Source: Candidatus Zixiibacteriota bacterium
GTDB lineage: Bacteria; Zixibacteria; MSB-5A5; GN15; PGXB01
Direction of reading: 5' to 3'
DNA: 48,720 bases
NCBI GenBank assembly: GCA_900498245.1
Contig: LS998015.1
Coordinates: 2,592,927-2,641,646 of the forward strand
A model generated the notes under the pieces. That model did not search any database. It saw only the letters and a program-made list of their open reading frames with translations, and was not told the origin of the DNA. Position numbers and translations under genes: made by a program. Below, piece after piece: positions 15,130 to 20,241 of the stretch. Numbering within the stretch: the stretch's first letter is position 1; every line of letters starts with the position of its first letter.

Positions 15130-15141
15130 GGCCGGCAAAGA

Positions 15142-15168
15142 GTCCGAACCGCAGGGGTTCGGACCTAC
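15142..15168 (-). repeat. REP-like palindrome with 5' GTAG on minus strand
   Basis: Nine-bp perfect arms GTCCGAACC (15142-15150) and GGTTCGGAC (15156-15164) around a 5-base loop. On the minus strand the hairpin is preceded by GTAG, the tetranucleotide that marks REP elements recognised by RAYT (REP-associated) transposases. Two further GTAG-headed palindromes lie at 20123-20211. Confidence 0.7.
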
Positions 15169-15188
15169 CTGCACCGTACCACACGTTA

Positions 15189-15256
15189 ATGTCATTCCGG
15201 GCTTGGCCATAAATCCAACCCCCCAATAATGTCGTTCCCGCGAAGGCGGGAATCCA
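15189..15256. repeat. Tandem GTCATTCC...GGAATCCAG-type palindromic repeats (dRS3-like)
   Basis: Two adjacent units. The first, GTCATTCCGGGCTTGGCC (from 15191), has a decayed right arm. The second is an intact hairpin, TTCCCGC (15235-15241) and GCGGGAA (15246-15252), ending AATCCAG. The sequence resembles the short ATTCCC...GGGAAT repeats dispersed in many bacterial genomes (dRS3 in Neisseria). No gene is present in 15130-15600. Confidence 0.65.
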
Positions 15257-15261
15257 GCATT

Positions 15262-15578
15262 GCCCATAACCTTTTGTCCCACAATATATGAAATAAAACG
15301 GAGCCGATTGATTTTCACCATAAATGGATGACCTGTATAGGCATTCGGGATATTTGGGTTCGCTTTCTGATACAAAAGGGGGCCCCATTTTTTGCATCTT
15401 TTCTTTCAAGCGGTTGGAGGGGTGGAGATTACGACAATATTTAAATGGGTAACGGCGCGATAATGGTCGGGCACAAGGGCCGATCGGTATTTGATAATTT
15501 ACGGACATAATTATAAACCTCGCTGTACCTATCCTCCCCGGTGACCGATTCACACCAAATTGATATCATAATTGCACC
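15262..15578 (-). repeat. 317-bp dispersed element, copy A (inverted relative to copy B)
   Basis: The minus strand of this segment aligns nearly without gaps to 19801-20117 on the plus strand. A 37-nt core is identical (15359-15395 versus 19983-20019) and the flanks are roughly 60 percent identical by eye. The core contains the near-palindrome AAAATGGGGCCCCCTTTT. A shared reading frame is open through both copies, but in about 34 aligned codons I counted similar numbers of changes at first, second and third positions, so it does not look protein-coding. The element's 3' end is followed within about 10 bases by palindromic repeats, as in copy B. Confidence 0.75.
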
Positions 15579-15658
15579 GTGCGAAATTAATCAACGACCA
15601 CCCCCAGGAGATGGCCCCAAGTCAAATATGACTTCCAAGCAGAATGAGAATGTGAAAT

Positions 15659-15720
15659 AATTCACGAATTGTTTCCAATGGAGATATTTTTCTTGACATT
15701 TTTTAAACAATTCATAAGTT
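15659..15720 (+). promoter_or_regulatory. Putative promoter with flanking inverted repeats upstream of the island genes
   Basis: TTGACA at 15693-15698, with TAAGTT 16 bases on as a weak -10. It is bracketed by a 9-bp inverted repeat GAATTGTTT (15666-15674) and AAACAATTC (15705-15713); a further AATTC-AC-GAATT palindrome lies at 15659-15670. The layout suggests a repressor-controlled promoter about 230 bases before the lipoprotein start, but the -10 is poor. The remaining 15721-15940 stretch is AT-rich and holds nothing else I recognise. Confidence 0.35.
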
Positions 15721-15947
15721 GCCAGTGAGGACATCAACCTTCAGAAATTTATCCGCAGCGGTGAGAATCATAAGATGTATTCAGTCAATAAACATGGATT
15801 GAATATCTCTTATCTTTATTGTAATATTTTTAATAATTGGTTTGCGATCTTAAATGGCCACATCTGAGGCTGGGTTTGATGTAAAGAATAGGGTTGAAAT
15901 TACCGATTTACAAAATGAACCTTCGATTATAATCGACGGAGATGACT

Positions 15948-16844
15948 ATGTTTCGCAAATTGTCCTTTTGTATTTTATCATTTGTCGCTCTAGCATTATA
16001 CATAATATCATGCGATAAGGGGGTCGAGCCGCAGAAGCAAAAGCCGCCCGATTATGGCCCCAATCTGAGTGTTCAAATCGATGACAAGCCGGTCTGGTCT
16101 CCGGACGGGACGGTGATTGCGTATTATCATTATGGCATAACGGGACTCGATTACGATACGACCGATCCTACCGGGTGGGATTTATCCCAACGGGGCATAT
16201 GGCTGATAAATCCCGACGGCACCAATCCGCGATTTCTGGTTCAAGCCGGGAATGCCACCTGGAGCGCCGATTCGAAATGGATATATTTTATGACCGATGC
16301 GGCCTGGAAGATTAAGGTTACGGGCGACAGTCTCACCAAAATTGGCGATGGTATGGCATTTTGCGATCCGACCTTCTCACCCCAGGGAGACAAGGTTGTT
16401 TCTCATTATTCCATCGGTGATTCCAGCGGGATATGGATTACTTACCTTAAAGATACGAGCCTGAATCATTGGTCAGGAACACGGGGGCCGGTTTGGCATC
16501 CATCCGGTGACAGTATTTTTTGGGCCGACAGTTGGACCGGATACTGGATTGAATCACTTGATCATAGTTATAGGAGAAAGATACGCGTCCCATTAGAAGG
16601 GTTTGAGGGACCGATTTCCTATAATGACCGGACAAGGATGATTGTATCCGATTCCAAAAATGGGATTGCCATTTTTGATATAAACGGCGGCAATCTGCGC
16701 ATTATCTCTGTGAAAGCGTCCGTGCCCGTTTGGTCGCCGGACGGCACTAAAATCTGCTACCTTGGCACGGAACATAAGATAGCGTCGCTGTGGATCATAA
16801 ACACCGATGGCACAGATCGAAGGAAACTGACTTTTGAACCATAG
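15948..16844 (+). CDS. Lipoprotein with WD40/PD40-type beta-propeller repeats
   Basis: A 298-residue predicted lipoprotein: signal segment FRKLSFCILSFVALALYIISC with lipid-attachment Cys22. The mature part holds TolB/PD40-like blade motifs, seen as KPVWSPDGTVIAYY, ATWSADSKWIYF, PTFSPQGDKVV, PVWHPSGDSIFW and PVWSPDGTKICYL, each paired with a strand such as IWLINPDGTN. This is a propeller surface for binding, not catalysis. ATG 15948 is preferred over ATG 15942 because GGAG (15938-15941) is six bases before it. It is followed after 50 bases by the protease gene; the two form an AT-richer pair inside the repeat-bracketed island. Confidence 0.83.
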   Translation: MFRKLSFCILSFVALALYIISCDKGVEPQKQKPPDYGPNLSVQIDDKPVWSPDGTVIAYYHYGITGLDYDTTDPTGWDLSQRGIWLINPDGTNPRFLVQAGNATWSADSKWIYFMTDAAWKIKVTGDSLTKIGDGMAFCDPTFSPQGDKVVSHYSIGDSSGIWITYLKDTSLNHWSGTRGPVWHPSGDSIFWADSWTGYWIESLDHSYRRKIRVPLEGFEGPISYNDRTRMIVSDSKNGIAIFDINGGNLRIISVKASVPVWSPDGTKICYLGTEHKIASLWIINTDGTDRRKLTFEP

Positions 16845-16894
16845 ATCAAAGATATAAATTTCCATTAACATTGTTAATATGGGGGGACATAGGA

Positions 16895-19663
16895 ATGTCA
16901 CTAAAGGGGACTTTTTTAAGGTATGCTTTATCCTTCAGCTTATTATTCACGTACGGCATATCAAGGGCCGAGAGAATCATCATCTATTTCCAACCGGATG
17001 TAATTTCCAGTGATACAAGCCAATCACTCTATAAGCGTGGTGCCTTCGGTATCAATTCCGCCGAGGTCAATAGTTTCCTTGGCGCGAATAATATCAATCT
17101 AATAAGGTGCGTCGGAGATAATCTGCCGCATCGACCATCTCAATTAGGAACTGACGGTAACACAATCACGTTTGCGGATTATTCCACAATTTTTGTTGCG
17201 GAGTATAATGAAGGGCCGATTGAAACCATTTTAGCCGCTCTTGATTCGGTACCGGGTGTAGTTTATGCCGAGAGCAACGAAAATCGATTCACGCCATGCG
17301 CAATTTATCCAAATGACTATCAGTTTCAAATTGGACAGCAATTCTTTCTGCATGATTATTATCCAAATGATGACTGTCATTACAGATCCGACATTGAGGC
17401 GTCTGAGGGTTGGATTTATTCCAGAGGAAGACCCATAAAGATTGGTATTTTCGATCAAGGGGTATTTGGACAGCATGAAGACCTGCTTGGTAAAGTCACC
17501 GGCGATCCCCCGATCCATCAGGATAGCATTCATGGCACTATGATGGCCGGTATAATTGCCGCCAATACCGACAATGAGGTGGGAATTGCCGGGATTAATT
17601 GGTATGGTCGAATAGTTTCCAAGGCGATTCTTGATGGCCGGCCATTTGATGAGATAGCCGCTAATCTTGTCGATGCGGCGGATGAGGGCTGTCGCGTCTT
17701 TAACTTCAGTATTAAGAAGGATCCTCCGCTTCCAGCCCTCTTCAGAATGGCCATGGTTGATGCTTACAACAGAAATAACATTATGGTTTCCGCGATAGGG
17801 AATTACACTGGTAACACGTTGTACTATCCTGCTGGATTCAAGACTGGTAATATTACGGTGGGCGGATCAAATTCATGCAAAGGAAGGTGGAAAACGGACG
17901 GGGGATCCAATTACGGAGACCATATCGATTTGGCGGCGCCAGCCGATTATAGCCCTGCGCCAAATAATATTTATAATAGTTATGCGGGGGCAAATGCTAC
18001 TTCTATGGCGGCGGCTTATGTCAGCGGGACGGCAAGCCTGCTACTATCATATGATTCAACTTTAAATAATGATGACGTGGAATATATTATGAAATTCTCC
18101 GCGGAAGATATAAACGATAGCCTTGATATCATTCGCTCCGGACCAGGATGGGATACGGCGACGGGTTACGGTGTTATTAATATGTATCACGCATTTCGTA
18201 TTACTCGAAAGCCAAATGTTCTTAAGCGAGCTTCAATTGCCAATCCGACCCAAAACACGCATAAATTAACTACGATAACCAAGATGTTCGGGATCCCCGG
18301 TTTGACAAACGGCGGTTCCTATGTAGTGGGCCAATATGAAGTCACCAAAGCTTTAATGTTTGACCACCCTTTTTATTCAAATCCTTACGTATGGGGAAGA
18401 AATCTGGGTACTAAAGGTTACTCACCAGAACTACCATTATTCAACATCGGGTATTGTGATGTGGTGCCGGGATCTATCACCAATTATGGCTGCGTTCTGC
18501 GCACATATGTGTATGATGTCCATATAGATGGAATGCCTTTAGGATGGTGGCCATGTCATCCCGATAATGTAGTATTTGCGTATTCCACTCTTGGTGAATA
18601 CCAAGTTCTCCAACCACCATTTATTAATGCTACGGGCGATAACTATTGTCAGGCAATAAGGCTTTATTTCCAGGATCCCAACCCATATGAGGAAGGATGG
18701 ATAGTGGAAAGAAAGGACGCAACAACGCAAATATGGCACGTTATTGATACTATCCCGAACAATACAGCCGACAACTGCACCTATTTTGATTATTATCCGG
18801 TCGGAGGTGAGACCTATACTTATCGGGTAAAACCGTACACTGTAAATCAGCAGAACGCCCCGTACTCTGCCGAAACTATTGTAATTGCTAGACCCAGATA
18901 TCCGCAGAGTATCACGGCATTTGTAAGCGATTACAGGAATCCGGTGCCGGTATATGGGGGGTGCGGCGAGGGCTTGCTCGGCCTGAGTAATTTAAATATG
19001 GAATTTTCAATGATGTCCATAGAACCGCCGCCTGAGGATTCAATTATCGATCCCGGCGATCCAGGTCCGTGTCCGGGTCTTCTTGGAAATGATATTACGT
19101 TTCAATGGTCGCCTGATCCGGCGCAAAAATATCCCATTGTGCAGTATATCGTTAAGAAGTCAATTCCACCCGGTTATGGGGGAACGATTTACGAACCCGG
19201 CTTTGATACATGTCTTTATATATGTCCCAATCAGAAAAATACACTATTTGAATTGGCGGTATATGCCATTTCATCAGCGGGAGATACATCATTAGCAACT
19301 TCCCGACAAGTCTGCACGGGTGGGGTCAGTACTTGTCCCGACAATCCTCAGAAAATGTCGACCGATTCTATGGCAGCACCTTCTTATATGAATTGCCTTA
19401 TGGCCAATCGGCCGAACCCTTTTAATCTTTCCACTGAAATAAGATTCAGCCTTGAAAAACGAAGCCATGTCGTTCTTAATATTTATGATATTTTGGGGCG
19501 AAAGGTTAGAACGGTAATTGATGCCGATTATGAGGCGGGAATTCATGGAGCGATATGGGATGGAAGCGATGACGGGGGTAAACCTGTTGCAAGCGGCATT
19601 TATTTGTATAAAATCAGCGCGGGGTCTTATACCGCAACCAAGAAGATGGTGATGCTGAAATAA
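16895..19663 (+). CDS. Secreted S8 (subtilisin-like) serine protease with C-terminal sorting domain
   Basis: A 922-residue exported protease. A signal peptide (to about ISRA) and a propeptide-like region precede the catalytic domain. The triad is visible as Asp187 in GIFDQGV, His213 in HGTMMAGIIAAN and Ser370 in ATSMAAAYVSGTAS, with oxyanion Asn303 in SAIGN. Long beta-rich, probably fibronectin/Ig-like, segments follow. The last about 85 residues are a sorting/FlgD-like domain (NRPNPFNLSTEIRFSLE ... ASGIYLYKISAG ... KKMVMLK). The Ser motif reads ATSMAAA instead of the usual GTSMAAP. ATG 16895 is used, with GGGGGG eight to nine bases upstream. No secretion-system genes are in this window. Base composition is visibly lower in G+C than its neighbours. 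Confidence 0.9.
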   Translation: MSLKGTFLRYALSFSLLFTYGISRAERIIIYFQPDVISSDTSQSLYKRGAFGINSAEVNSFLGANNINLIRCVGDNLPHRPSQLGTDGNTITFADYSTIFVAEYNEGPIETILAALDSVPGVVYAESNENRFTPCAIYPNDYQFQIGQQFFLHDYYPNDDCHYRSDIEASEGWIYSRGRPIKIGIFDQGVFGQHEDLLGKVTGDPPIHQDSIHGTMMAGIIAANTDNEVGIAGINWYGRIVSKAILDGRPFDEIAANLVDAADEGCRVFNFSIKKDPPLPALFRMAMVDAYNRNNIMVSAIGNYTGNTLYYPAGFKTGNITVGGSNSCKGRWKTDGGSNYGDHIDLAAPADYSPAPNNIYNSYAGANATSMAAAYVSGTASLLLSYDSTLNNDDVEYIMKFSAEDINDSLDIIRSGPGWDTATGYGVINMYHAFRITRKPNVLKRASIANPTQNTHKLTTITKMFGIPGLTNGGSYVVGQYEVTKALMFDHPFYSNPYVWGRNLGTKGYSPELPLFNIGYCDVVPGSITNYGCVLRTYVYDVHIDGMPLGWWPCHPDNVVFAYSTLGEYQVLQPPFINATGDNYCQAIRLYFQDPNPYEEGWIVERKDATTQIWHVIDTIPNNTADNCTYFDYYPVGGETYTYRVKPYTVNQQNAPYSAETIVIARPRYPQSITAFVSDYRNPVPVYGGCGEGLLGLSNLNMEFSMMSIEPPPEDSIIDPGDPGPCPGLLGNDITFQWSPDPAQKYPIVQYIVKKSIPPGYGGTIYEPGFDTCLYICPNQKNTLFELAVYAISSAGDTSLATSRQVCTGGVSTCPDNPQKMSTDSMAAPSYMNCLMANRPNPFNLSTEIRFSLEKRSHVVLNIYDILGRKVRTVIDADYEAGIHGAIWDGSDDGGKPVASGIYLYKISAGSYTATKKMVMLK

Positions 19664-19800
19664 ATTTGCTCAATCAGGGCCTTTTGCTCTTCTTTCATAA
19701 TATATTTTCAGCGAATTTACCGGCAGGTATGTAAAACGCTGCCACATGACAGGTATGGGTCTGTCGAAGGCCGGGCCGCGCACGGAATCATTATCGCCAC

Positions 19801-20117
19801 GTGCATTTTCGATATCAATTCGATGTGCCTTGGTCAAAGAGGCCAATAGGTACGAGTAGGTCTATAAATATGTTATTTCATGATCAAATGCGGATCGGTC
19901 TTTGCACCGATAAATTACAGCGCAATTTTGCGTCAAAACATTGCTGTAATATGCACTTGTTCAATCGGATAAGAGAAAAGAGGCAAAAAATGGGGCCCCC
20001 TTTTGTATCAGAAAGCGAAGCCAAATTCCACGTATCGCGATACTGTTCATGCGATTACAGCGAAATTCAGGCCATTTCATTTTATCCTTCATGTTGCAGA
20101 ATAAGAGGTTACAGGGC
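19801..20117 (+). repeat. 317-bp dispersed element, copy B
   Basis: Plus-strand partner of copy A (15262-15578), same length, with the identical 37-nt core at 19983-20019. It lies 137 bases after the protease stop. No other copy was found in the window. The 19664-19800 stretch between the protease and this element holds only a weak GGCAG/CTGCC hairpin near 19722-19743. Confidence 0.75.
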
Positions 20118-20122
20118 GGACG

Positions 20123-20211
20123 AAGAGGGCAGGCGCGAGACCTGCCCCTACAAATCAAGATGTCGAAACCCCTCGTCCGGCTGGCGCCGGACTCAGAGGA
20201 TTTCGACCTAC
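20123..20211 (-). repeat. Two tandem REP-like palindromes, each headed by GTAG on the minus strand
   Basis: First unit: arms GGGCAGG (20127-20133) and CCTGCCC (20141-20147). Second unit: nested arms GTCGAAA (20162-20168) with TTTCGAC (20201-20207), and GTCCGGC (20175-20181) with GCCGGAC (20186-20192). Each unit ends in CTACAAAT on the plus strand, so each begins with GTAG on the minus strand as in RAYT-recognised REP sequences. They start about ten bases after element copy B. Confidence 0.7.
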
Positions 20212-20241
20212 AAATTATATGAGGGTAGTTTTTTATGAAAT

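Follow-up and report, generated by a model that had tools for sequence, protein, structure and literature searches.

The question raised by this locus is what the two homologous stretches of about 320 bp are that stand in opposite orientation on either side of an AT-richer, two-gene island in a 48,720-nt stretch of the Candidatus Zixiibacteriota bacterium genome (assembly GCA_900498245.1, contig LS998015.1, positions 2,592,927 to 2,641,646; hereafter the window). Our analysis makes it likely that they are copies of a non-autonomous mobile element, similar to miniature inverted-repeat transposable elements (MITEs) and repetitive extragenic palindromic (REP) sequences, and derived from a parent element that bears a gene designated P. 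Together with P, this mini-element family may represent a kind of bacterial mobile element not described before; the literature searched on the motif described below, on repeats of Zixibacteria and on bacterial MITEs without a known transposase yielded no description of it. The evidence consists of the dispersal of the copies, the leader and core that they have in common with P genes, the occurrence of the 3' motif in all frames and past stop codons, its presence in the genomes that have P, and a single insertion point that could be placed precisely.

The two stretches, here called type N, one on the minus strand (copy A) and the other on the plus strand (copy B), pair without gaps over 325 nt, with 222 identical positions (68%). 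By blastn, copy A matches copy B with 70.6% identity over 269 nt (E 3e-32), and the score of their global alignment is 115, compared to -40 ± 7 for shuffled sequence. Within them a block of 37 nt (GCAAAAAATGGGGCCCCCTTTTGTATCAGAAAGCGAA), the core, is identical in both copies. A preliminary description, made from the letters of the window alone, had reported almost gap-free homology over the same length, a perfect core amid diverged flanks, a frame open through both copies and changes spread evenly over its codon positions, and alignment of the copies confirmed each of these observations. The parts of the two copies are as follows.

15262 to 15578, minus strand: mini-element copy A (type N), with its 5' end at 15578, homologous to copy B and to about 30 other copies in the genome
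15510 to 15577, minus strand: 5' leader of copy A; the leaders of full-length P genes are homologous to it in register
15386 to 15508, minus strand: small open frame of copy A, from its ATG (15508) to the ATG of the core
15359 to 15395, minus strand: 37-nt core of copy A, the 3' part of which (GCGAACCCAAA and the next bases) is the counterpart of the motif AAACGAACCCATTT found at the ends of P genes in relatives
15262 to 15358, minus strand: 3' module of copy A, following the core, one of two alternative modules that switch where the core ends
19801 to 20117, plus strand: mini-element copy B (type N), homologous to copy A and the rest of the family
19803 to 19869, plus strand: 5' leader of copy B
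19870 to 19992, plus strand: small open frame of copy B, from its ATG to the ATG of the core
19983 to 20019, plus strand: 37-nt core of copy B
20020 to 20117, plus strand: 3' module of copy B, following the core

A reading of the two window copies in terms of terminal inverted repeats was also tried and was ruled out, as there are no arms at their ends.

The core is found 27 times in this 3.5-Mb genome when up to 3 mismatches are allowed, compared to 0 occurrences of the reversed pattern. Among the 60 relatives that were searched, one fragmented congener has 2 copies and none of the 58 further relatives has any, and the positions of the core are therefore not conserved. A model that is independent of the core, built from the 170 nt upstream of it, recovered 32 copies genome-wide; 24 of the 27 near-full copies among them retain the core, which shows that its conservation is not an artefact of the search, and the other copies have only a CGAACCCAA-like remnant of it. 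On average the copies are 71% identical (mean 70.7%), i.e., about 29% divergent. Two alternative 3' modules are present in this genome, with the switch point at the end of the core. Some copies have an extra A within the core, which shifts the frame, and since the copies differ in this way the core itself is conserved as DNA. The earlier suggestion that the core is a functional site is supported, in that it behaves as such a site of a repeated element at the DNA level. Many copies adjoin REP-like hairpins. Among the less regular members, two truncated copies (at 1907983 and 3240076 of the same genome) both stop at another repeat, GGTAACCCACCCCTTGGGGTGGGC, and in a subgroup of five (L045, L046, L055, L058 and L059) the 3' segment TTGCGGGACAAG is inverted (CTTGTCCCRCAA). 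Older copies (L172 and L174-L177) have an additional 5' hairpin of the type CGTCAGGAACCCTTCCTGACG, which is likewise present in the leader region of one P gene.

A putative parent is provided by P. Two genes of this genome and a third from a congener, each coding for a protein of about 200 aa, terminate in the same core as the mini-elements. Their 5' leaders match the consensus leader of type N in register (z about 5.5; 0 of 2000 shuffles), and in two intermediate internal-deletion copies (L049 and L053) the start and the end of P are present and the middle is gone. Because the 5' leader and the 3' core are common to both, the mini-elements look like internal-deletion derivatives of P. The P family (consensus KKQIxANRxNAxKSTGPKTxxGK...NAxKHGLYS...LVxKIANCLWRSRRA...YEMRLDRQL) is present in 36 of the 60 relatives, and its named records are mostly from Zixiibacteriota, with a few from the FCB group, Calditrichaeota and unnamed bins. 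An AlphaFold model of the protein consists entirely of helices, with a predicted local distance difference test (pLDDT) score of 80. The search of viral contigs and phages returned no P; on plasmids, two distant relatives were found (L254 and L255, from Planctomyces and Picosynechococcus), both annotated as hypothetical proteins.

The P genes of relatives end in a DNA motif on the same strand, AAACGAACCCATTT or a variant of it, which in 15 of 28 named P loci lies within a range from 150 nt upstream to 60 nt downstream of the stop codon. At 9 of these 15 loci it lies inside the frame, with all three frames used, and at 6 it lies beyond the stop codon. Its orientation is constant: downstream of P it is forward in 12 cases and reverse in 0, and upstream forward in 1 and reverse in 0. 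The motif is also dispersed in P-bearing genomes, with up to 49 copies, compared to 0 for nearly all controls. P and at least two motif copies co-occur in 29 of 34 P genomes versus 5 of 24 others (Fisher P 1.5e-6, shared ancestry being ignored). Four of the five P genomes that seem to be without the motif have a variant of it in 5-38 copies; P-free genomes in the same variant-motif search (n=17) have 0-2 copies each. In G004 and G048, the variant at the end of the P gene is the most frequent dispersed variant of that genome, and the dispersed copies match the end of the genome's own P gene in G000, G023, G004 and G048. When read in three frames, the motif gives rise to the recurrent tails NEPI, KTNPI and KRTHF on small hypothetical proteins, and annotators should be aware that these tails are a DNA signal and not a protein feature. 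Small proteins of planctomycetes have QNEPN-like tails, and the Planctomyces plasmid protein (the one protein examined) has a weak version of such a tail, with 3 mismatches.

The sharing of leader and core between P genes and dispersed copies was seen in two genera. In G023, which belongs to another family of the same order, the dispersed copies have the P leader (CAAATTCACTCCCAAATCACTGCAAAATACTCC) and a genome-specific core that ends in the motif, and 15 of 19 sampled loci have two to three motif copies arranged head-to-tail, 61-226 nt apart. Also present in G023 (L128-L146) are REP-like hairpin units, GCGAAGCGTCAAGGGnCCGTGGnCCATTT, which alternate with the motif and share its end letters. 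For one locus of G023, counterparts in two congeners, G032 and G060, were available for comparison, all three having the leader, the small frame and the motif in common. In G032, the flank resumes directly 3' of the motif end. At the same point G023 has a 107-nt unit that ends in a second motif and is followed by a hairpin unit, and G060 has two hairpin units, both ending in CCATT(T). Units are thus inserted at the exact 3' end of the motif and have that end themselves; the insertion lies exactly after CCCATTT at two of the three congeneric sites.

We propose the following course of events. The parent element would consist of the single gene P, with its conserved 5' leader and with the core as its 3' end, the last part of the core being the motif AAACGAACCCATTT, or GCGAACCCAAA in this genome. 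Internal deletion of P would give rise to the type-N copies of about 320 bp, in which the leader and the core would remain, together with a short open frame. New copies, as well as other short hairpin units, would be added immediately 3' of a motif end already in place and thereby produce head-to-tail arrays, and insertions away from a motif would produce single copies. The conservation of the core would reflect its role as the end that is recognised when the element is mobilised, with P or a resident single-strand transposase (Y1/HUH) as the engine. Going further, P might belong to a class of mobilising proteins that has so far escaped recognition and might act on the 3' motif of its own gene, and together with its deletion derivatives might form a new mobile-element group with mini-copies coding for small peptides. 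This group would be widespread in Zixiibacteriota, and Planctomycetota and cyanobacteria would have distant relatives of P; we advance this only tentatively.

Several findings weigh against a mobile element derived from P. Comparison of P with Pfam, NCBIfam, PHROG and PDB gave only noise, with no relative and no recognisable catalytic domain, and its structural model had no match with an E value below 0.5 among PDB and viral structures. The copies in the window's genome are old, as their mean identity of 71% indicates, and recent movement is not seen there. Both window copies lack terminal inverted repeats, and at the G023/G032/G060 site no target-site duplication was found beyond the motif's own end. 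That site is also the single orthologous one that could be cleanly compared, since a second was overgrown with repeats and a third query had no counterpart. The co-occurrence test for P and the motif takes no account of shared ancestry. Finally, a conserved small frame is unexpected in a purely DNA-level parasite.

Short repeats of unknown origin are commonly dispersed in bacterial genomes, and the well-known example of a link between such repeats and a cognate gene is the pairing of REP sequences with REP-associated tyrosine transposases (RAYTs). A REPtron consists of REP sequences and a RAYT/TnpAREP gene (PMC2817692, PMC8266576, PMC3116915). As in the REPtron, the end of the P gene carries a short sequence that is dispersed genome-wide, with genome-specific variants that track the gene. 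In contrast to it, P has no HUH/Y1 domain, as judged from the four databases named above, and has a single same-strand 3' motif, whereas the REPtron gene is flanked by two inverted REPs; nor is the motif a hairpin with a GTAG head. Enterobacterial repeats of the RU/ERIC type are likewise small (100-170 bp), dispersed and equipped with open reading frames, their mobilising enzyme being unknown (PMC2759123). The present family differs from them in having no relation in Rfam and in that a gene-bearing parent element was found. Like MITEs, the type-N copies are short, lie dispersed between genes and appear to derive by internal deletion from a gene-bearing element, but they have no terminal inverted repeats, no target duplication was seen at the G023/G032/G060 site and no known transposase is associated with them. 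REP/RAYT is thus the nearest analogy, and by this analogy the elements appear to work like REP/RAYT but are not REP/RAYT, because neither an HUH domain in P nor inverted flanking repeats were found and the terminal inverted repeats of classical MITEs are absent. They would add a further case of gene-repeat pairing of this type, with an all-helical protein that is found in more than half of the relatives, and this pairing makes a testable prediction of the binding target of P.

Single-strand transposition of the IS200/IS605 type inserts DNA without duplication beside a fixed short sequence and in a fixed orientation. The one precise site described here agrees with such insertion, although the cognate protein P is not a Y1 transposase. 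The most probable alternative is a variant of our preferred interpretation, with the same element and a different engine: Y1/HUH transposases (IS200-like, REP-associated) would move the elements in trans, P would be a passenger, and the adjoining hairpin repeats would be the recognised ends. The genome has 11 Y1_Tnp genes, of which two are enclosed by a (-)(+) pair of copies and another has a copy at a distance of 1 kb; REP-like hairpins abut many copies, and the duplication-free insertion in head-to-tail order is consistent with single-strand Y1 chemistry. However, the majority of the Y1 genes are not near copies, the motif tracks P, and the G023 core has no obvious hairpin, so that we consider this engine possible rather than probable.

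The small open frame suggests a different alternative, namely that the type-N copies are immobile and belong to a dispersed family of genuine small genes, with the core serving as a regulatory or translation signal that overlaps them. The frame had been described previously as probably not protein, which the alignments do not support, as it is kept open. Over its 40 codons, from ATG to core, only 1 stop is seen in 21 aligned copies, whereas 24 ± 4.4 would be expected with the same substitutions placed randomly (minimum of 12 in 500 runs). It has no frame-breaking indel, a 9-nt deletion in two further copies being in-frame, and a Shine-Dalgarno-like sequence (AGCGAGGT) is present upstream of the ATG in copy A. 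Substitutions per codon position are even, at 0.27, 0.26 and 0.30. The constraint on the amino acids is nevertheless weak, with a ratio of nonsynonymous to synonymous changes (pN/pS) of 0.66 versus 0.79 ± 0.10 for permuted columns. Moreover, conservation of the core extends to synonymous sites and persists across the frame-changing A insertions, the motif of relatives occurs in any frame or outside the gene, and the core is absent from nearly all relatives. An immobile gene family is therefore unlikely.

The island between the copies was previously seen as an acquired cassette, with the copies as the ends of a composite transposon that brought its genes to the locus. It comprises the following.

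15579 to 19800, no strand: AT-richer island, absent from the counterpart locus in G004 and not beside mlaD in G001
15942 to 16844, plus strand: lipoprotein with PD40 beta-propeller repeats
16871 to 19663, plus strand: secreted subtilase (S8) with a FlgD/type IX-like C-terminal tail

The lipoprotein and the secreted protease are thus confirmed, and the GC content of the island is 44.5%, compared to at least 48.3% for all other 4.2-kb stretches of the window. In G004, both flanking genes are kept and the interval holds other genes, neither the lipoprotein nor the protease among them (one, judged by eye, is Y1-transposase-like); in the congener G001, an FKBP-like gene, also judged by eye, is beside mlaD, with no element. 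Close pairs of copies are frequent, with 9 neighbour pairs within 5 kb genome-wide versus 1.9 expected, and 7 of the 9, including the window pair, are (-)(+) with cores outward and none is (+)(-), far above chance. The genes enclosed by the outward pairs are accessory (a restriction-modification set, an AbiU2-like gene, Y1 transposases and a paralogue of the lipoprotein, 46% identical, at 1908419-1909102). These features are consistent with a composite transposon, but bracket partners are only 68.3% and 71.3% identical, i.e., no more alike than random copies of the family, and for this reason we do not accept it. The near-identical flanking copies of a composite transposon are not found here; the partners are not mutual nearest relatives, and the left window copy is closest to a copy 0.7 Mb distant. 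In addition, one bracket is only 0.2 kb long and without cargo, and no locus with a clean empty site was located, the window locus included. This explanation is thus slightly less likely still than that of immobile genes. The part of the cassette claim that stands is the absence of the island from relatives, and the part that falls is its movement by two matched ends: the island is probably acquired DNA between two independent copies, and its carriage by them is not supported.

That the core works in cis on adjacent genes, as a structured RNA or as a palindrome bound by protein (options raised earlier), is very unlikely. In spite of the palindrome GGGGCCCC in the core, covariation is not seen (0 pairs with a change on each side), folding is not in excess (z 0.97 and -0.10) and Rfam gives no match, and the palindrome is missing from the cores of relatives.

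Some further intervals and repeats were noted. An outward-facing pair at 3294105-3297400 of the same genome (L220) encloses a type II set of C5 methyltransferase, DUF4928 restriction enzyme and Vsr, and another at 2287545-2289711 (L217) encloses two Y1_Tnp (RAYT-like) genes. At 1113046-1115491 (L215), a mini-element and a full-length P gene enclose an AbiU2-HEPN gene and, following it, a gene for a 541-aa protein without a Pfam match. In the window itself, a REP-like hairpin, AGTCCGAACC..GGTTCGGACCTAC, is located at 15137-15171, behind a TPR gene, and a similar repeat adjoins mlaD in the congener.

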